DNA of 64,000 nucleotides, from positions 248,001-312,000 of the forward strand of contig JAHBXC010000001.1 in assembly GCA_019636675.1 (NCBI GenBank), in the 5' to 3' direction. The stretch is from Phycisphaeraceae bacterium (lineage in GTDB: Bacteria; Planctomycetota; Phycisphaerae; Phycisphaerales; UBA1924). Below the pieces are notes generated by a model. That model was given only the letters and a program-made list of their open reading frames with translations. It made no database searches and was not told the DNA's origin. Of the stretch, positions 18,643-28,142 are shown one piece after another. A program made the translations under genes and the position numbers. The first letter of the stretch is position 1. Every line of letters begins with the position of its first letter.

Positions 18643-19557
18643 TCACCCTCGGGACGGCGCCTGCGTCGCCGGCACCCACCCGCCCTCGCGCCAGATCGTT
18701 CTATCGGTGGGGACACGCAGGCGCTCTGCAAGACGGGCCGGGTCAATGTCCTGGAACGGCTCGACGCGCCCGGCGGCGGTCTGCGCGCTCCATGCAGCGT
18801 CGGCCCCGCTGAGCAGAAGGGACTCGACGCGCATCTGCGAGACGAGGTCGATGGGCGAAAGGGCCGGGCTCGGGTCGCCGCCGCAGGTCCTGCACAAGCG
18901 ACGGCGCGAGTCCGGGTTGAGGTCATCGCGCACGGCGCGGAGGTTCCGACACTCGCGGCAGCTGGGGCGTGACTCGATCTCACGGAGCATCCCGGCGACG
19001 TTCCGGAGCGTGGGCGCGTGCTGGGCCAGCAGCGACCGGACATCGGTTCTGGCGAGTGGCTCGCGCGCTTCGAGGAAGCGGCCGGCGCGATACTCCCCGA
19101 GCGCCGTCGCCAGCGCGAGCGACGCGTCGTCGCTGCCCTGCGAGCCGCGCGAGAGCATGAACATGCCGGGCGGCTCGTAGATGTCGTCGTCGCTGCGCAT
19201 CGCCTCGGCCAGGGCGCCGACATACTTCCGGTCCTCGTCGGAGTCGAGCAGGTCGAGCTCCAGGAGCGCGAGGCACACGCTGCGCGACAGCCGGGACGAC
19301 GCGCCGGCGGCTCGGTCGAGTTCGTAGGCGAGGACGAAGAGCCGGCGCGCCAGCGCTCGTCCCTCCGGGCCCTGGATCTCGGACGCGACCTCCTCCGCGA
19401 GCTCGAAATACGCGATGGGTCGCGACGGCGTCAGCGCGGCGAGGCGTGCGTCCAGCGACGCGATCCCGCTGCCGAGCTGCGCAACGGGCTGAGCGGCCGC
19501 TACGCCTGCGAGCGGAACCGCCCAGAGTACGGTCGCCAAGAGCACGGGCCTGATCAT
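18643..19557 (-). CDS. Exported hypothetical protein with a four-cysteine knuckle (last gene of the vWA operon)
   Basis: A 304-residue protein I do not recognise. It has a signal peptide (IRPVLLATVLWAVPLAGVAAA, cleaved near AQP), a helical middle and a paired-CxxC motif: Cys200-x2-Cys203 and Cys222-x2-Cys225, as in small zinc ribbons. Its ATG overlaps the TGA of the upstream gene by 4 bp, so it should be translationally coupled to it. It is the distal gene of a five-gene minus-strand cluster (vWA protein, two exported proteins, one membrane-anchored protein, this one). An exported zinc knuckle is unusual because zinc ribbons are mostly cytoplasmic. No function can be assigned. Confidence 0.75.
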   Translation of the reverse strand: MIRPVLLATVLWAVPLAGVAAAQPVAQLGSGIASLDARLAALTPSRPIAYFELAEEVASEIQGPEGRALARRLFVLAYELDRAAGASSRLSRSVCLALLELDLLDSDEDRKYVGALAEAMRSDDDIYEPPGMFMLSRGSQGSDDASLALATALGEYRAGRFLEAREPLARTDVRSLLAQHAPTLRNVAGMLREIESRPSCRECRNLRAVRDDLNPDSRRRLCRTCGGDPSPALSPIDLVSQMRVESLLLSGADAAWSAQTAAGRVEPFQDIDPARLAERLRVPTDRTIWREGGWVPATQAPSRG

Positions 19558-21974
19558 CGGGGGGACTCCTCACCAAATCGGAGCGCCCAGAGCGAGAGCG
19601 ACGCGAACTCGGCCGCCTCGATCTGGTCGGCGACGCTCGGGGCCGATCGAAGCCGATCGCGCAGCGTGGTCAGAACCTGTTCGATCGCCGGCTCGCGCGA
19701 GGGTCGCTCGACGGCGAGCAGCAGCGCGAACGACTCGGCGGCGTTCGTCGCCTCAGCGGCGAAACGCTGCATATCGCCCGTCGCGATCGTCCTTCTCGCG
19801 ATATGTCTTCGACGCAGGAGTTCGACCCGTTCGTTCGCCGACAGCCCCCCCGCCGCGGTCGCTTCGTGCAAGAGCGATGTGACAAGCTCCTCGGCGGCGG
19901 CGCGGGGCGTCGCGTTGGCGTCGAGCGTCACGCCGGCGCGCACGCCGAACGACTCCTTGATCGCGGCGGCGTACGAATCGGCGGGGTCCAGCGATGCACC
20001 ACCGGTCAGGATGGCCAGCAGACGGTTCACGAGCGCGCGACGAGTCTCCACGACCCACGACGCGTCCTCGATCGGGGGCAGCGACCGACCGGCGGTCGCT
20101 TCGAAGATGTCCTGCATCGCGCGAGCGCGCGGCGCCCTGGGCAGCGACTCGAGCGCCGCGTTGATCACGGTTGGGTCGCTCGCGCGGAACTCGACGATTC
20201 GACCCGCGATCCGGCGCACCTCGGCCGGCGTGCCGAGCATCGCGGCCTCGAAGACGACCTCCGCGTCGATCGGGCCGAGCTCACGCCCCTCGCTCAACAG
20301 GTTCCGGAGGATGTCGATGCGGTCCTGCGCGTTCTGCCTGGCGTTGAGGTAGCGGATCGCGAAGGCGCCGTCGCCGCTCCTGGGCGAGAGCGCGTCGAGA
20401 CGAGGCTGGCCAGGCGGGGGCGTCGACAGCGTGCCGGCCGGGTCGTCGATGATGCGACGGGCGGAGTCGGGCTCGCCCTTCCAGAGCAGGGCCGCCGCCT
20501 CGTTGAGACGGGCGATGTGCGCCGCTTCGCGAAGGCGCGCCAGCGGGTCGGCGCTCATGCTGTCCCACGGCTCCTTGCCGCGCAGCGAGACCGCCACCCT
20601 CCAGCGGTCGAGAACGGACGCGGCGATCACCGACTGACCGGAGCCCCACCGCGCGTTCAGGCGGCTGCGCAGTTCTGAACGCTGATAACTCGACGCCCCG
20701 GCGGACAGCGTGTCGTTGACGCTCATGCCCGACTCTGGCGCATTCATCGACAGCCACTGCGTCACCACGCCCAGCTCGCGCGTCGCGAACCGGCGATGGT
20801 CTTCGAGCCAGCCGATCAACCGGCCTCGCGCGTTCCCGCGCGCGCTCCAGTCGCACTGCGCGAGCAGAACAGTCAGGCGATCGCGGAGCTGCACATCGCT
20901 CGGCCGGGCTGAGGCGGCGGCGAGCACCGCTTCCGCCGCGTCGAGCGCGACGCCGGGCAGGGCGCCGGGGTTGAGCTCGGTCGCCGTCAGCAGCGCGCTG
21001 TCCCAGGCCTTCCACGCGTCGCGCGAGGCCGGCGCCGCGTCGGCAGACGGGGACGCCAGTCTGGTCGCGACGGCTCGCAGGGCCGCGATCGCGCCGAGTT
21101 CAAACGACGCGTCGAGCGAGGAGCCGAGCTGCACCCCGACCGCGCCCGCGCGCTGCTGGGCCGACTGGCGCAGCGACTCCGCGAGATCGCGCTCACGCAG
21201 CAGACGGGTCGCGACGCCGGCGGACCACACCGCGCGGAGCAGGGCCGTGGCGTCGAGCGATTCGCGCGAGAGCATCGCGTCGAGCGGGCCGAACGCGGCG
21301 GTGCTCGCGCGTGGTGCGTCGCGACCCTCGGACGACCGGAGGAGAAACTCGACCTGGAGCTCGAGCGCTGCGACTCGCTGGGATCGGTCGATCACGGTCC
21401 ACGAATCCCCCAGGACATCGACCGCCTGCGCGAACCGTGCAATCGCGTCAGACGGGTCCGAGCGGTATCCGAACGAGGCACGCCGGAGCGCACGGACGAC
21501 GCCGCTGGCGTCGATGGATTCGTCCGGCTCCCTCGTGATCGGCGCACGGGTCGTTGACTGGACACTCGTGTCACGCTCGCGTGTCGGCGACTGCCCCGCC
21601 CCCGCGTCGAATCCGGGGGATGGGTCGCGCGTCGGATCGTCGCCCCTGATCGCCGGGGCGCGACCGATGGAGAGGACCACTGCGGCAACGGCGCAGACCA
21701 GCGAGCCAGCGGACAGCGTGATCACGAGCGGCGTGTTCACGCCCTGCTTCTTTCGTGGCAGCTTTCCCGGCGTCGCGTGCGATGGGATCTCCCCGGGACG
21801 CGCAGTCGCGGCGGGCGCCGGCGTAAGTGGCGACGAGGCGGGCGCCGGGCCAGCTGCGAACGCGGGAAACGCCGACGCGAGGACGGCTCGACGACGACGC
21901 GACGTCGGCGACACGGTCGCAGGGCGCGGGCCCGCGAGAAAGGACGCGAGATCGAACGGCGGTGAGGATGTCAT
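19554..21974 (-). CDS. Large membrane-anchored helical protein (vWA operon, gene 4)
   Basis: An 806-residue protein of unknown family. The ATG at 21974 overlaps the upstream stop by 4 bp; a longer frame would read through a GC-rich shadow. The first 80 residues are Pro/Ala/Ser-rich with a basic RRRR patch, then comes a single membrane segment at about 82-104 (TPLVITLSAGSLVCAVAAVV). After a disordered linker the remaining 600 residues are predicted by eye to be helical repeats rich in Ala, Leu and Arg, without a recognisable motif. The topology suggests a cytoplasmic N-tail and a large periplasmic repeat region. It is co-translated with the neighbours and presumably part of the same envelope assembly. 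Confidence 0.75.
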   Translation of the reverse strand: MTSSPPFDLASFLAGPRPATVSPTSRRRRAVLASAFPAFAAGPAPASSPLTPAPAATARPGEIPSHATPGKLPRKKQGVNTPLVITLSAGSLVCAVAAVVLSIGRAPAIRGDDPTRDPSPGFDAGAGQSPTRERDTSVQSTTRAPITREPDESIDASGVVRALRRASFGYRSDPSDAIARFAQAVDVLGDSWTVIDRSQRVAALELQVEFLLRSSEGRDAPRASTAAFGPLDAMLSRESLDATALLRAVWSAGVATRLLRERDLAESLRQSAQQRAGAVGVQLGSSLDASFELGAIAALRAVATRLASPSADAAPASRDAWKAWDSALLTATELNPGALPGVALDAAEAVLAAASARPSDVQLRDRLTVLLAQCDWSARGNARGRLIGWLEDHRRFATRELGVVTQWLSMNAPESGMSVNDTLSAGASSYQRSELRSRLNARWGSGQSVIAASVLDRWRVAVSLRGKEPWDSMSADPLARLREAAHIARLNEAAALLWKGEPDSARRIIDDPAGTLSTPPPGQPRLDALSPRSGDGAFAIRYLNARQNAQDRIDILRNLLSEGRELGPIDAEVVFEAAMLGTPAEVRRIAGRIVEFRASDPTVINAALESLPRAPRARAMQDIFEATAGRSLPPIEDASWVVETRRALVNRLLAILTGGASLDPADSYAAAIKESFGVRAGVTLDANATPRAAAEELVTSLLHEATAAGGLSANERVELLRRRHIARRTIATGDMQRFAAEATNAAESFALLLAVERPSREPAIEQVLTTLRDRLRSAPSVADQIEAAEFASLSLWALRFGEESPR

Positions 21975-24661
21975 CGGTCGCCCCGTGTGCCGCGACCAGC
22001 GTCGACTCGCTCTCGCAGGGACGCGAATCTCGCGTCCCACGGAGGCGCCCCACCCGTGGGAAAGAGCTCGAAATGTCGGGAAAGCAGCGCCGCGGCGTCG
22101 GCCTCGCTGAAGCGCGCCGTCACGCGCGCAAGGTGGTACGACGCCTCGAACCAGGAGTCGGACCCGAACTCTGCGCCCGCCTTGAGCACCCTCCACGCGT
22201 CGGACGCGTCGGAGTATTCATCGGCGAGCTCCGCGAGCTGCGCGGAACGGCGGAGCGCCTGCGAGGACGACGGGTGTGCCACGAGAACGCGCCGGATGAG
22301 ACGTCGTGCGAGGCCGAGCGCCTCGCGGTCCCCTTCTTCGCTGGCGAGCAGCGCGCCGGCGTCGCTGACCGCGAGGTACACGCCAAGCACGGCGCCGTCG
22401 CGCAGGGTCGCCTCGCCAGTCCCGAACGAGTCGATCACCCGAACGCCGGAAGCGACGACGGCGCGAGCGTACGCGGTGGTGGAAGGCGACTCCCGCCACG
22501 CCGCCAACGCGCGACGGTACGCGAGGCGGTCGGCGGCGACGAGGAAGGCGCCGGCGCCGGGCGCGTCGATCGCGCGCAGCGAGGTGAGTGCGCTCTCGGC
22601 GCGAGTCGCGTCGTTGACGAGCAGGGCGATCTGCAGTTCGCGGTAGCGGAACTCGGCGAGCGTGTCGGGCTCGCGGACCAGACCTGCGCGAACGAGCGTG
22701 CCCAGACGGTCCGCGGCGCGCTGCGCGAGCGCTGGCTCCGAAACGGAGTCGGTGAGCATGACGGCGAGGATCTGCCTCGCGAGAAGAACGGCCCGGGCCG
22801 CAGCGTCGGAATCGCCCCCGAGCGCAGACTGTGTGTCGGCGTCCAGGAGCGGGCCAGCGATCTCGGCGAAGCGGAGCGCCTCGGCTCGGGCGGCGTCGCC
22901 GGGCGCGCTCTGCGCAGCGCGGAAGAGCATGGCCGCGGCCTGACGCCTGGCGGCGATGTACGACGAGGAGCCCGGTTCGATCGAGAGCAGCGCGTCGAGA
23001 AGATCGGGGTTCTGCGTCGTCGCGCTCTCGCGGGACGCGCGCTCGAGCACGAGCGCCCCGGCGCGCGGGTCGCTGGGGAAGCGATCGGAGAACTCCCGCC
23101 CCGCGTCCGCGGCGAGCGTCTCGAACTTCGAGCGGTCGTGCGACGCGTGCCTGGCAGCGAGGCGGAGCGATCGGACGCGGTTCCAGAGCGCGTCGGCGGC
23201 GCGAGGGCCCGACATCGACGATCCGGCCTGCTCGAAGAGCGCCGCGGCGGCGAGGAGCGCGTCGGGATCGGCGCCGGCGCTGAAGAACGCGGCGCTGGCG
23301 CGCAGCATCATCGCGTCGAGCATCGCGTCTCCGGCGGACTTCGCGTCGGGCGCTCGCAGCGCCGCCTCGAGCAGGCGGGACGCGTGCGCATAGAGCGACG
23401 CGAGCGAGGGATCAGCGCTGGGCTCGTCGGGCGCGCCCGCCTGGGAGTGCGCGTCCCGCGCCGCGCGGAACGCCTGTAACCCCCGGACGTAATCGGTCAC
23501 GAACCCGACATCGCCGAGCGCTTCGGTGCCGTAGCGCTGCGCGAGGTCGATGACCTGCGGCGTCTGGCCGGAGGCGACGAGATCGGCGAAGGCGACGCGG
23601 CGCAGCGCCTGCTGCGGCGCGGGCTGCCCCCCCTGGGGCAACTCGAACGCGAGAACCGCGACGAGGCGCGATGTGGCAGGGTCGAGCGGCTTTGTCGGCG
23701 CGCTCTCGGGCGCCGACGCGGGCACGCCGCGGAGCTCGCGGACGTATTCGAACAGTTCGGTCCACCGGGCGGCCCTGGCGAGAGTGATGATGCGTCGCTT
23801 CGCGGCGAAGGCGAGCAGTTCTGCGTTCTCACGGTTCGATTCCTCGACCGCGTCGATCCAGCGCGTCGCGAGCGCCGCGTCGCCCGAGACGCTGATGCTC
23901 GCCGAGACGCCCAGCGCGGCGCGGGCGACGTGCTCGAAGCGAAGCGTCTGATCTGGCACGCGGTCGAGCGTGGGCGGTTTGCCGGGCTCCGCGTTGAGAA
24001 TCCAGCCGAACCGCGGCAGCGCCTCGATCGCCGGGGCCCGCTGGTTCGTCATCTCGGCGAGATACGTCAGGCACCAACCCGCGAGATACATCGCCATTGA
24101 GCGCTGCCGGCGCGCGTCGGCGAGCTGCTGCGCGATGGCTTCCTCATCGGCGCCGTCGCGGGCGGCCTGCTCCATGCGTTCGAGATTGTCGACGCGCCGG
24201 TGCGCGACCGTGCCCAGACGCCCCAGCTCGGCGGCGAGCGTCGTGAAGACCCGGCGCGCCTCCTCTGCTTCTTCGGATGAGGCGAGGCGCAGACGCCAGC
24301 GCTCGGCGATCTGCTCGGCGTTCGAGTACGCGGCGCGATGAAGACTCAGACGCAGGTCCAGCGAGTCGGCCTCGGGGATGACATCGAGGAGTGCGCGCGC
24401 ACGGCGCTCCAGGTCGGCACGCCTCGACGCGTTCGTCGTGGATTCGAGTTCCTGAGCGACAAGCCGAGTCAGCCGCTCGGCGAGCGCGGCGCGTTCGGCG
24501 CCCCCGACGGCCGAGAGGCGCGCCTCGAGGTGCTCGATAAGGGCAGAGCCGAGGGAGTGCGACTCAAGATACCGCTCAAGCGCAAGGTCGCCTGTGCTCT
24601 GCGCGAGCGCGTGCGACGCGCACGCCGCCAGAGAGATCATCGCGAGGCACGCGCGGTTCAC
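21971..24661 (-). CDS. Large exported helical-repeat protein (vWA operon, gene 3)
   Basis: An 896-residue protein with a signal peptide (NRACLAMISLAACASHALAQ) and an almost wholly alpha-helical body with the spacing of TPR-like or similar solenoid repeats. No catalytic motif is seen. The GTG at 24661 is preferred as start because it overlaps the upstream TGA (GTGA) and supplies the basic n-region of the signal peptide; ATG at 24640 is the alternative. Its own stop overlaps the start of gene 4 (ATGA). Such solenoids usually serve as protein-protein scaffolds. Together with genes 2, 4 and 5 it may form a periplasmic complex around the vWA protein, which is inference. Confidence 0.75.
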   Translation of the reverse strand: MNRACLAMISLAACASHALAQSTGDLALERYLESHSLGSALIEHLEARLSAVGGAERAALAERLTRLVAQELESTTNASRRADLERRARALLDVIPEADSLDLRLSLHRAAYSNAEQIAERWRLRLASSEEAEEARRVFTTLAAELGRLGTVAHRRVDNLERMEQAARDGADEEAIAQQLADARRQRSMAMYLAGWCLTYLAEMTNQRAPAIEALPRFGWILNAEPGKPPTLDRVPDQTLRFEHVARAALGVSASISVSGDAALATRWIDAVEESNRENAELLAFAAKRRIITLARAARWTELFEYVRELRGVPASAPESAPTKPLDPATSRLVAVLAFELPQGGQPAPQQALRRVAFADLVASGQTPQVIDLAQRYGTEALGDVGFVTDYVRGLQAFRAARDAHSQAGAPDEPSADPSLASLYAHASRLLEAALRAPDAKSAGDAMLDAMMLRASAAFFSAGADPDALLAAAALFEQAGSSMSGPRAADALWNRVRSLRLAARHASHDRSKFETLAADAGREFSDRFPSDPRAGALVLERASRESATTQNPDLLDALLSIEPGSSSYIAARRQAAAMLFRAAQSAPGDAARAEALRFAEIAGPLLDADTQSALGGDSDAAARAVLLARQILAVMLTDSVSEPALAQRAADRLGTLVRAGLVREPDTLAEFRYRELQIALLVNDATRAESALTSLRAIDAPGAGAFLVAADRLAYRRALAAWRESPSTTAYARAVVASGVRVIDSFGTGEATLRDGAVLGVYLAVSDAGALLASEEGDREALGLARRLIRRVLVAHPSSSQALRRSAQLAELADEYSDASDAWRVLKAGAEFGSDSWFEASYHLARVTARFSEADAAALLSRHFELFPTGGAPPWDARFASLRERVDAGRGTRGDR

Positions 24662-25785
24662 GGGGCGACCTCGGCGCCGGCGCGGTCCATCCAGACGATC
24701 GCCGGGTGAGTCGGCATCGTCCGCTCGAGCTCGGTGCGCAGGGCCGCGGCGCGGGTGTCCTCGCCCCTGCGCCGGAATTCGACGGACGACCTGGCGAGCG
24801 CAAGGCCGGTCAGGTACCGCTGCGTCTGCGAGAACCGCGCCGGGAGGTGGAGGAGGTGGACGACCCCGAGCAGCCGCGTGCGTTCGTCGTCTGCGCCGAG
24901 TCGCGAGGCGCCGATCGCGTACCTGGCCCACGCTTCGCGCCAGGAACCCGCGTCGGCACGGAGATTCGGCTCGAGCGCGTCGGCGGCGCGTCGGGCCACC
25001 GCGGCTTCGGCGTGCTGCGCGAGGGCGAGGTTGAGCGCGAAGCGCACCTCGGGGTTCGCCCCGACGTCGCCGATGTCGGGGGCGGTCTGACCGCGCGCGA
25101 ACGACGCTTCCGCCGCCCATCGGTACACATCGAAGAGCGCCGACGCGACGGGGTCGCCCGCGATGACGGAGTTCGGCTCGGTCGTCGCCAGGCGCTCAAC
25201 CGCGAGCGAGTGCACGAACACCGGGGGAAGCTGCGGATCCAGCAACGCGATCGCGCTCGCGGCGTCGCCCGCGATCGACCGGCGCAGCGCGACCGAGGTC
25301 GCCCACGGCTCGACGGCGGCGGGCAGCGCGGATCGCATCAGCCGGACTCTGGCCGTGCCCTCAGCGATCACCAGCCCCGTCGGCCCGTCCAGTCTGACGA
25401 CGGCGTCTGCGTCGTCCGCTGCGTCGGCGTCGATGGCCGCCTTCCAGAGTCGTTCAAAGATCGGTTCGGCGAGTTCGATGTCGCCTCGCTGCAGACGCTG
25501 CCACCCTCGCCACGCGTCGTCGGAGAGCGAGCGGTAGTCCTGGGCGGCGCCCTCGAAGTCGCCCCCGACGCGTTTGACCTCGTGCCAGCCGAGCACGCGC
25601 GTGGACGCGTCGTCGCGAGCGACGCGCACGCCGGCGGGGCTTACCTCAACGACGACCTCGTCGACCCACGCCCCGCCGCGAAGCTCGACCTGCCCGGACG
25701 CGCCGGCTGTCAGCGCAAGACACAGCGCGCCGTGGAGGAGCGTTCGTCGGGGGATCGTGCGCGTGTGGATCGTCGGTCGTCTCAT
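24658..25785 (-). CDS. Exported hypothetical protein (vWA operon, gene 2)
   Basis: A 375-residue protein. The N-terminus carries an RR pair before a hydrophobic stretch (IPRRTLLHGALCLALTAGAS), compatible with a Sec or possibly a Tat signal. A short beta-rich part (VELRGGAWVDEVVVEVSPAG, GWHEVKRV) precedes a helical region (about 75-370) that resembles the repeat architecture of gene 3. The ATG at 25785 overlaps the stop of the vWA gene by 4 bp, and its stop overlaps the GTG start of gene 3. I do not recognise the family. The tight coupling implies stoichiometric production with its neighbours. Confidence 0.75.
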   Translation of the reverse strand: MRRPTIHTRTIPRRTLLHGALCLALTAGASGQVELRGGAWVDEVVVEVSPAGVRVARDDASTRVLGWHEVKRVGGDFEGAAQDYRSLSDDAWRGWQRLQRGDIELAEPIFERLWKAAIDADAADDADAVVRLDGPTGLVIAEGTARVRLMRSALPAAVEPWATSVALRRSIAGDAASAIALLDPQLPPVFVHSLAVERLATTEPNSVIAGDPVASALFDVYRWAAEASFARGQTAPDIGDVGANPEVRFALNLALAQHAEAAVARRAADALEPNLRADAGSWREAWARYAIGASRLGADDERTRLLGVVHLLHLPARFSQTQRYLTGLALARSSVEFRRRGEDTRAAALRTELERTMPTHPAIVWMDRAGAEVAP

Positions 25786-26801
25786 GGGCCGGGCACGTAC
25801 ACATATGTTCCGCCCGAGGCGCGCGCGATATCGCGCATCAGCGTCTCGGCCTCGCGGCTGACGAACGCGATGCAGTGTATCGGGACCGGCCGATCCGTGG
25901 CGCGATTGAGCCGGACGACCTGATCGGCGACGGCCGGGTCGAAGAGCCCGTCGGTCATGAAATAGATCGCGTCCGGACGCGGCTTGAGCGCGAAAGCGAT
26001 GTCGAACGCCGGAGCTGGATAGGTGCCGCCTCCGGCCACGATTTTGCTGATCATCTCGAAGGTGCGCCGCTTGTTGGGCTCGCTGGCGTCGACCCATCGC
26101 GAGCGCCCGCCGAGGGGGACCGCGTCGCTGTTGAAGAGGACGATCAGGAACGAGGACGCGCCGACGAGCCCGTCGATGGAGTTCGTCAGCTCGCGCTTGA
26201 GCGCCGTGAGGCGGTCGCCCTGCATGGAGCCGGAGACATCGACGACGTAGACGAATCGGGAGCCGCGCGCTTCGACGCCGAAGAATCGAGAGCCGCCCCC
26301 CCCGCCGCCGCCGGCGCTCAGGTCGCCAAACCCGTCGCTGGCGCCGTCGCCTGCGCCCGACCCGCCCCCCAGGCCCGCGCCCGAGATGCCCGAGAGCGCC
26401 GCGGGCGCGCCGCTGGAGAGGTCGATGGCCAGACCGCTGCCCCCGGCGAGCGCGTCGAGGTCGACGCTCGGGGTCTCGATGGTCGGGAGGTTGCTGGCCG
26501 CGGCGTCGGCGATCGCGAGTTCGCTGGCCGAGAGCGAGGTCAGCGTCGTCTCGGCGACGATTCCCCCTCCCTCACCGGACGCGATGAGCCGGTTTCCGCC
26601 CCCGCCCACTCCGCCGCCCCCGACGACGATGGTCGCGGCCAGAGCGGCCAGCACGAGGTGGACCAGCACGGAAACCGCGACGCCAGCCGACGTCGCGCTG
26701 CCGATCCAGATCGCGAGGCGCGTGAGGGGGCCGAAGCGCTGGGGCTCGTCGGCGTTCGCCTCGTCCGGCGAGATGGTTGAAGTTCCGGTGTTGATCGTCA
26801 T
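25782..26801 (-). CDS. Membrane-anchored von Willebrand factor A domain protein (vWA operon, gene 1)
   Basis: A 339-residue protein: short polar N-terminus, one membrane segment at about 38-60 (SAGVAVSVLVHLVLAALAAT), a long Gly/Ser-rich linker (61-171, with runs of up to seven glycines), then a vWA domain (about 180-335). The metal-ion-dependent adhesion site is intact: DVSGSM (188-193), Thr260 (GGGTYP) and Asp284 (MTDG). The FFGVEARGSRFVYVVD lead-in is a wording I associate with planctomycete vWA proteins. The ATG at 26801 is chosen because it starts the cytoplasmic tail; no strong ribosome-binding site is seen. vWA domains mediate metal-dependent protein interactions; the partner here is probably encoded by the following four genes. 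Confidence 0.88.
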   Translation of the reverse strand: MTINTGTSTISPDEANADEPQRFGPLTRLAIWIGSATSAGVAVSVLVHLVLAALAATIVVGGGGVGGGGNRLIASGEGGGIVAETTLTSLSASELAIADAAASNLPTIETPSVDLDALAGGSGLAIDLSSGAPAALSGISGAGLGGGSGAGDGASDGFGDLSAGGGGGGGSRFFGVEARGSRFVYVVDVSGSMQGDRLTALKRELTNSIDGLVGASSFLIVLFNSDAVPLGGRSRWVDASEPNKRRTFEMISKIVAGGGTYPAPAFDIAFALKPRPDAIYFMTDGLFDPAVADQVVRLNRATDRPVPIHCIAFVSREAETLMRDIARASGGTYVYVPGP

Positions 26802-27669: not shown

Positions 27670-27745
27670 AGGCACGGGGCACAAGGCACGAGTAAGAGAG
27701 AGTTGCGCACTCTTTCCTAGTGCCTATTGCCCACTGCCTATTGCC
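27670..27745. repeat. Imperfect long inverted repeat with internal direct repeat between convergent genes
   Basis: The left arm AGGCACGGGGCACAAGGCAC (27670-27689) matches the complement of 27720-27739 at 16 of 20 positions. Between them AGAGTTGCGCACTCT (27699-27713) is a smaller palindrome. The right side also holds an 11-bp direct repeat, TGCCTATTGCC, at 27721-27731 and 27735-27745. The whole lies between the pyrH and TSCPD stops and overlaps the latter. It may act as a bidirectional terminator or be a copy of a dispersed repeat; base composition is lower in GC than the surroundings. Confidence 0.65.
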
Positions 27746-28142
27746 TTCTTCCCACAGCCTTCCGCTCGACGAACTCGACTTCCAGGTACCGCGCGATGTA
27801 ATCGATCACGCTGCTGGTGTCGGGGATGTCGGGGTTGGTCGTGTGGCCCAGGGGCTCGAAGCGCATGCCCTTGAAGCGGCGGATGGCCTCTTCGAGCGGG
27901 AGGCCGTACTGGAGCGCGAGACTGAACGCGCGGCAGTAGGCTTGGCAGAGGCCGCTGATCGTCGAGCCCTCTTTGGAAATCTTGAGGAAGACCTCTCCGG
28001 GTCGCCCCTTGTCGTCCAGGCCGATGGTGAGGTACCCCTCGTGCCCGCCTATGGAGAACTTGTGGGTGAGCGACTCTCTCGTCGCAGGCAGCGACATGCG
28101 GGTGGCGACCATGTTGCTCTCGGCGTCCTTTCCGGTGGGCAT
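27738..28142 (-). CDS. Stand-alone TSCPD-domain protein (C-terminal part of class II ribonucleotide reductase)
   Basis: A 134-residue protein consisting almost only of the TSCPD domain that forms the extreme C-terminus of adenosylcobalamin-dependent ribonucleotide reductase NrdJ. Recognisable segments are LPATRESLTHKFSIGGHEGY, KISKEGSTISGL, SLALQYGLPLEE and FEPLGHTTNPDIP. In some bacteria NrdJ is split in two genes (NrdJa/NrdJb), and this could be such a separate C-terminal piece, or a free-standing paralogue; the catalytic part is not in the window. A -10-like element lies six bases before the start. The last codons fall inside the inverted repeat, so the tail KAVGRRQ may not be ancestral. 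Confidence 0.82.
   Translation of the reverse strand: MPTGKDAESNMVATRMSLPATRESLTHKFSIGGHEGYLTIGLDDKGRPGEVFLKISKEGSTISGLCQAYCRAFSLALQYGLPLEEAIRRFKGMRFEPLGHTTNPDIPDTSSVIDYIARYLEVEFVERKAVGRRQ

Follow-up and report, generated by a model that had tools for sequence, protein, structure and literature searches.

The window analyzed here is a stretch of 64,000 nucleotides from a Phycisphaeraceae bacterium. An earlier note on this DNA had claimed five open reading frames on the minus strand between positions 18643 and 26801, joined by four 4-bp overlaps (ATGA, GTGA, ATGA and ATGA), with DVSGSM, Thr260 and Asp284 in the vWA protein. Re-reading the sequence confirmed all of these points. The features of the locus are listed below.

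25782..26801, minus strand: gene 1, membrane-anchored vWA protein, 339 aa (open reading frame and PF13768 match)
26622..26690, minus strand: transmembrane (TM) helix of gene 1, about residues 38-60, with S44-x3-H48 at 26658-26672
26532..26561, minus strand: segment IVAETTLTSL after the TM helix of gene 1, a candidate motor box (in relatives, the strand V-E-F-A-V-M)
25950..26240, minus strand: metal-ion-dependent adhesion site of gene 1 (D188-S190-S192 at 26223-26240, T260 at 26022-26024, D284 at 25950-25952)
24658..25785, minus strand: gene 2, exported protein, 375 aa (open reading frame, AF2 model and distribution)
24658..24661, minus strand: GTGA junction of genes 2 and 3, the site of ExbB-ExbD-ExbD in 64/71 relatives
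21971..24661, minus strand: gene 3, exported TPR solenoid, 896 aa, GTG start (open reading frame and TPR profile matches)
19554..21974, minus strand: gene 4, membrane-anchored helical solenoid, 806 aa (open reading frame; no Pfam or PDB match)
18643..19557, minus strand: gene 5, exported helical protein, 304 aa (open reading frame and AF2 model)

The operon is convergent with pyrC, whose stop abuts that of gene 5 (18642/18643), and divergent from pyrH at the gene 1 side. In five loci (L187, L191, L192 and L193 of family f4, and L311), pyrH is co-oriented with the operon, and its linkage thus outlasts inversion. Downstream of pyrH, the window encodes a minus-strand TSCPD-domain protein of 134 aa (27738-28142), and the same gene is found near the L016 locus.

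Among the other same-strand neighbour pairs of the window, a 4-bp overlap occurs in 1 of 21; therefore, the four overlaps of the operon are more than coincidence. The same overlap can be formed in relatives between genes 1 and 2 (60/71), genes 3 and 4 (59/66) and genes 4 and 5 (52/57). Because the genes stay together, encode exported or membrane-anchored products and keep their overlaps, a joint periplasmic assembly of the five proteins is likely. The fixed stoichiometry and metal-dependent docking proposed earlier go further than this, and the overlaps give no ground to infer either.

TonB and TolA pass energy from the inner membrane on to the outer membrane. Gene 1 has a TonB/TolA-like topology, with a cytosolic N-terminal tail, one TM helix, a Gly/Ala-rich linker of about 115 residues and a C-terminal vWA domain (PF13768, E 1.9e-12, residues 184-334). 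A domain profile search found no TonB/TolA C-terminal domain in the protein. The earlier note had treated the adhesion-site residues as the key element, and D188, S190, S192, T260 and D284 are indeed unchanged across 11 orthologs. However, it missed S44 and H48, which are the sole invariant residues of the TM helix among 11 orthologs and which we regard as the most telling residues, beyond those of the adhesion site. S-x3-H is present in 68 of the 69 readable TM helices of orthologous loci, the remaining one having T-x3-H, and is also found in vWA proteins adjoining ExbB/ExbD of Pirellulaceae and other planctomycetes. The pair forms the core of the motif (SHLS) by which TonB and TolA bind their motors. 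The other two residues of this motif, L and S, are not conserved in the relatives of gene 1; at what we take to be the TonB-equivalent positions, gene 1 has A55 and V59. The segment after the helix, a putative strand reading V-E-F-A-V-M in most relatives, has diverged in the window, L016, L254 and L163, and it is kept in most genomes whose motor genes have been relocated (see below).

To follow the locus beyond the window, we searched 397 genomes of the class with a gene 2 profile and obtained matches in 75. These comprised all sampled genomes of family f1, most of f4 and all of f5, which belong to the same order; families f2 and f3 gave no match, and a single marginal match lay outside the order. 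Gene 2 had no match in a plasmid search. A contig scan with gene 2 alone returned pattern matches but no relatives, and the scan was redone with a vWA alignment. The nearby relatives of the locus belong to the Phycisphaerales, Planctomycetota. We then scanned 71 loci, consisting of 70 of the gene-2-positive loci and the window, with per-gene profiles, and the genes stay together in order across these 71 Phycisphaerales genomes, which supports this part of the earlier note's reading.

The five-gene unit put forward in the earlier note is incomplete. In 64/71 loci, the order is pyrH, vWA, gene 2, ExbB, ExbD, ExbD, gene 3, gene 4 and gene 5, with the motor genes lying between genes 2 and 3. Where the contig reaches, the motor set of these 64 loci consists of one ExbB and two unlike ExbD genes, with one exception that shows a single ExbD; these are parts of a motor of the TolQR/ExbBD type, which is driven by protons. 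The motor genes are missing from the locus in 7/71, namely, the window and six others. In a conserved-gene tree, the seven motor-less loci (window with G107, G291 with G311, G279 with G338, and G096) are nested in four clades among motor-bearing relatives. Therefore, the ancestor had eight genes, and the window carries a derived, motor-less form. Read from this tree, in which some inner nodes are weakly supported, as they are in the ExbB tree, the motor-less five-gene form appears to have arisen at least four times. The terminal branches of the motor-less genomes measure 0.7 to 1.2 substitutions per site, so the loss of the motor is not recent. Once the motor genes had gone, a 4-bp overlap of gene 2 with gene 3 formed again in 5/6 such loci. 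In the G096 group, the two genes are fused into a single protein, which suggests that their products work side by side.

The retained Ser/His pair stands out when the motor-less loci are aligned with one another. S and H are found in 12/12 of these loci, and no other TM column does better than 9, most being at about 5; the 12 include L257, whose contig ends before gene 3 and which was called motor-less since its genome has no operon-type ExbB.

The earlier note held that only the vWA domain was recognizable in the operon. In searches of the five proteins with Pfam, NCBIfam and PADLOC, vWA was the sole match, and an anti-phage role was dropped because PADLOC models matched none of the five. Profile and structure searches of the four remaining proteins overturned the statement for genes 2 and 3, which are TPR-like, and left genes 4 and 5 unmatched. 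For gene 3, the profile search picked out consensus TPR chains made by design (E 9e-7), and a member of its family matches TPR_6 (E 2.8e-6). The AF2 model of gene 2 (mean pLDDT 93.0, pTM 0.88) consists of a signal-like helix, a small five-strand beta domain (residues 33-73) and a TPR-like solenoid of about 14 helices. The top matches in its fold search were mostly TPR domains, all with E >= 0.14 and none significant. Gene 4 has a single TM helix at about residues 83-101 and is a helical solenoid as judged from its sequence. The N-terminus of gene 4 in relatives gave the impression of a J-domain, for which Pfam gave no support. Genes 4 and 5 had nothing significant against Pfam and PDB profiles. 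The AF2 model of gene 5 has a mean pLDDT of 84.1, and no solved fold matched it in a fold search (best E 0.48). The protein is helical with a cysteine-rich insert, in which C200, C203, C222 and C225 (18883-18960) form the CxxC-x18-CxxC pattern noted earlier. The pattern is present in the window but full in only 33/64 orthologs, and we rejected it as the defining mark of gene 5.

Several known systems resemble this locus in part. The Bat (aerotolerance) operons of Bacteroides combine a membrane-anchored vWA protein with TPR proteins. In the window locus, by contrast, no MoxR ATPase or DUF58 gene was seen, and the topology of its vWA protein, with the S-x3-H helix, differs. The TonB-ExbB-ExbD system shares the TM S-x3-H, the linker and a C-terminal binding domain, as well as, in the relatives of the window, an ExbB/ExbD-type motor. 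In contrast, the window operon has vWA in place of the TonB C-terminal domain and several large periplasmic solenoids, its relatives carry two different ExbD genes, and no TonB-dependent receptor is present at the locus. Tol-Pal likewise joins a motor and a transducer to a TPR protein of the periplasm, CpoB. Part of the model of gene 2 resembles the YbgF/CpoB TPR domain (2xev), with an E-value that is not significant. However, there is no TolB or Pal at the window locus, the OmpA-family genes of the window-clade genome G000 all lie distant from it, and the Pal-like lipoprotein of G000 is near another, tsaE-type motor.

The closest likeness is to the SHLS-type vWA force transducers encoded near TolQ/TolR-like and TPR genes in the PVC group, which were published in 2025 (Williams-Jones et al., PMC12204202); the system is thus not wholly undescribed, contrary to the earlier note's proposal. 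In that work, models of vWA transducers encoded with motor genes placed them on the motor by way of the conserved His, TolA and TonB were described as able to use each other's motors via this motif, and the motif was attributed to "many", not all, vWA transducers, with adjacent TolQ-like and two TolR-like genes "often" present (PMC12204202). The core of this family, a vWA protein with its motor, is thus already known. The window locus shares with these transducers the single N-terminal TM helix with the S and H of the motif, a probably disordered linker of about 100 residues, the C-terminal vWA domain, an adjoining TPR gene (gene 3, gene 2) and its occurrence in Planctomycetes; in 64/71 orthologous loci, it also shares the adjacent TolQ-like and two unlike TolR-like genes. 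It differs in that motor genes are lacking from the window operon, the candidate motor-box strand is divergent, conservation of the motif is limited to S and H, and three more conserved genes (genes 2, 4 and 5) accompany the vWA gene. Going by the papers found in our literature search, there appears to be no earlier account of the motor-less form, of the relocation pattern or of the companion genes.

We then asked where the motor had gone, and the ExbB tree sorted the motor-less genomes into three outcomes. Nine genomes (G096, G403, G404, G405, G279, G338, G399, G400 and G402) keep an operon-type trio elsewhere; no vWA gene lies beside the relocated trio in G096, G279 and G338, the three inspected closely. 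Since the displaced motor often survives elsewhere in the genome, driving in trans is plausible. In the window clade (G000, G107, G397 and G398), a genome search found no operon-type ExbB, and each genome carries two Tol-type ExbB-ExbD-ExbD trios, the second copy being a duplication found in that clade only. In G291, G311 and G401, neither an operon-type trio nor a second Tol-type copy was found.

One Tol-type trio of G000, with ExbB and ExbD at C1:511193-512585, lies beside tsaE, and in G000 and G107, a Pal-like (OmpA-family) gene is found no more than about 8 kb from this trio. In the region L086:7382-11515 of G000 C4, the second trio, with ExbB and ExbD at C4:68804-70200, immediately precedes genes for an FtsX-like permease and an ABC ATPase, and a similar pair follows the trio of G107 (L089). 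G000 also encodes a lone TonB/TolA-like protein of 374 aa (C1:773195-774316; L235:3196-4320) with an S-x3-H helix and a borderline TonB_C match, which was found in 16/19 related genomes tested and is likely the transducer of the Tol-type motor. Other loci of this kind were seen in passing. G090 has a further vWA gene, whose product also carries an S-x3-H helix (L090:9278-10282); together with the ExbB, ExbD, ExbD and 771-aa exported protein that follow, it forms a paralogous force-transducer locus. A region of G096 (L110:2808-7974) is arranged similarly; its first gene has an S-x3-H helix and no match to the vWA profile used. In G311, a very divergent ExbB-like protein (C35, L241:5781-8358) precedes two proteins, each with an apparent single N-terminal TM helix, and this cluster is possibly an unrelated proton-driven motor system.

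Overall, we propose a putative mechanism in which the locus encodes a trans-envelope force transducer that lacks dedicated motor genes and is now energized in trans by a Tol-type motor, a reading in which we place about even confidence. By analogy with TonB and TolA, the TM helix of gene 1 would dock through S44 and H48 against the flank of a proton channel of the ExbB/TolQ type, and pulling would be transmitted across the periplasm through the flexible linker. The vWA domain would grip a periplasmic partner, most probably the TPR and helical scaffolds from genes 2 to 5. In the ancestor, the ExbB-ExbD-ExbD trio located between genes 2 and 3 would have been the driver. In the window clade, where this trio is gone from the genome, the Tol-type motor, of which the clade has an extra copy, would most likely energize the transducer. 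Of all this, the conserved locus, the loss or relocation of its motor, the retained Ser/His pair and the Tol-type duplication confined to the window clade are established computationally. That gene 1 is force-coupled at all is inferred from the same analogy, and synteny, overlap and fusion lead us to infer that the vWA domain has the products of genes 2 to 5 as its load or scaffold. The role of the duplicated Tol-type motor in driving gene 1 is speculative. We consider somewhat less likely than not the full version of a motor swap, in which the vWA transducer lost its own ExbB-ExbD-ExbD and came to be driven by the lineage-specific Tol-type duplicate while its motor-box strand changed and Ser/His stayed fixed.

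Here, the divergence of the V-E-F-A-V-M strand in the window, L016, L254 and L163 is read as a change of motor partner, with loss of coupling as the main alternative. The degradation of this strand in the window and its nearest relatives may mean lost coupling rather than a switch. Other points also speak against a transducer driven in trans: a relocated operon-type motor and a duplicated Tol-type motor are both absent from G291, G311 and G401, the L and second S of SHLS are not conserved, and the Tol-type motors may be fully taken up by the 374-aa TonB-like protein.

The main rival is a motor-free static complex, which we consider possible but less probable than a transducer driven in trans. 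According to this explanation, an unpowered envelope assembly persisted after motor loss, the vWA protein became an anchored adhesion module, and S44 and H48 serve for packing on the TM helix of gene 4 or for folding. The absence of the motor genes from window-clade genomes and the degraded strand in the window, L016, L254 and L163 are consistent with it, as is the otherwise intact operon with its overlaps kept. Moreover, the cytosolic N-terminus of gene 4 is 82 residues long in the window compared with a median of 213 in motor-bearing relatives, and its shortening goes with the true-loss lineages (Mann-Whitney nominal p 0.001, with related genomes counted as independent and few independent events). 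This correlation is weakened by the few independent events and by the relocated-motor genomes, some of which keep the N-terminus (L262, L265 and L267) and some of which lack it (L304 and L312). However, invariance within the TM helix is confined to S and H across the 12 motor-less loci, the same pair as in motor-bearing loci, and a Ser and a His within a membrane helix are unlikely to be retained unless they are used. Additionally, in other lineages whose locus has lost its motor or had it moved, one is often still present in trans.

An improbable explanation is that a single ancestral Tol-type, tsaE-adjacent motor drives the vWA protein and is shared with the TonB-like protein, the second copy serving, for example, the neighbouring FtsX-type ABC transporter. 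The position of the second copy beside the permease and ATPase fits this view. Also in its favor, a tsaE-type ExbB is present in all motor-less genomes of family f1 examined, possibly excepting G402, and G291 and G311 carry a tsaE-type trio only, besides MotA-like or divergent matches. However, sharing leaves unexplained why the duplication coincides with exactly the four window-clade genomes, and the G096 group (family f4) is without a tsaE-type copy in the ExbB tree, though it keeps an operon-type trio. Finally, that motor genes are present but were missed through assembly or annotation error is very improbable: nothing more than the use of draft genomes speaks for it, whereas gene 2 shares 4 bp with gene 3 well inside a 1.57-Mb contig, the independent assemblies G107 and G397 show the same junction, and a whole-genome search of G000 turned up nothing beyond a MotA and two trios at other sites.

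Machines of the TonB/TolA type drive essential processes at the outer membrane, and the present case bears on how a transducer selects its motor. The repeated removal or relocation of the motor with the transducer kept separates the residues tied to the channel (S and H) from those with a possible tie to the ExbD dimer (the motor box). Moreover, with genes 2, 4 and 5, the locus provides this class of force transducers with three conserved families of companion proteins. If the motor swap is true, it would represent a natural exchange of a transducer's motor in the window clade.
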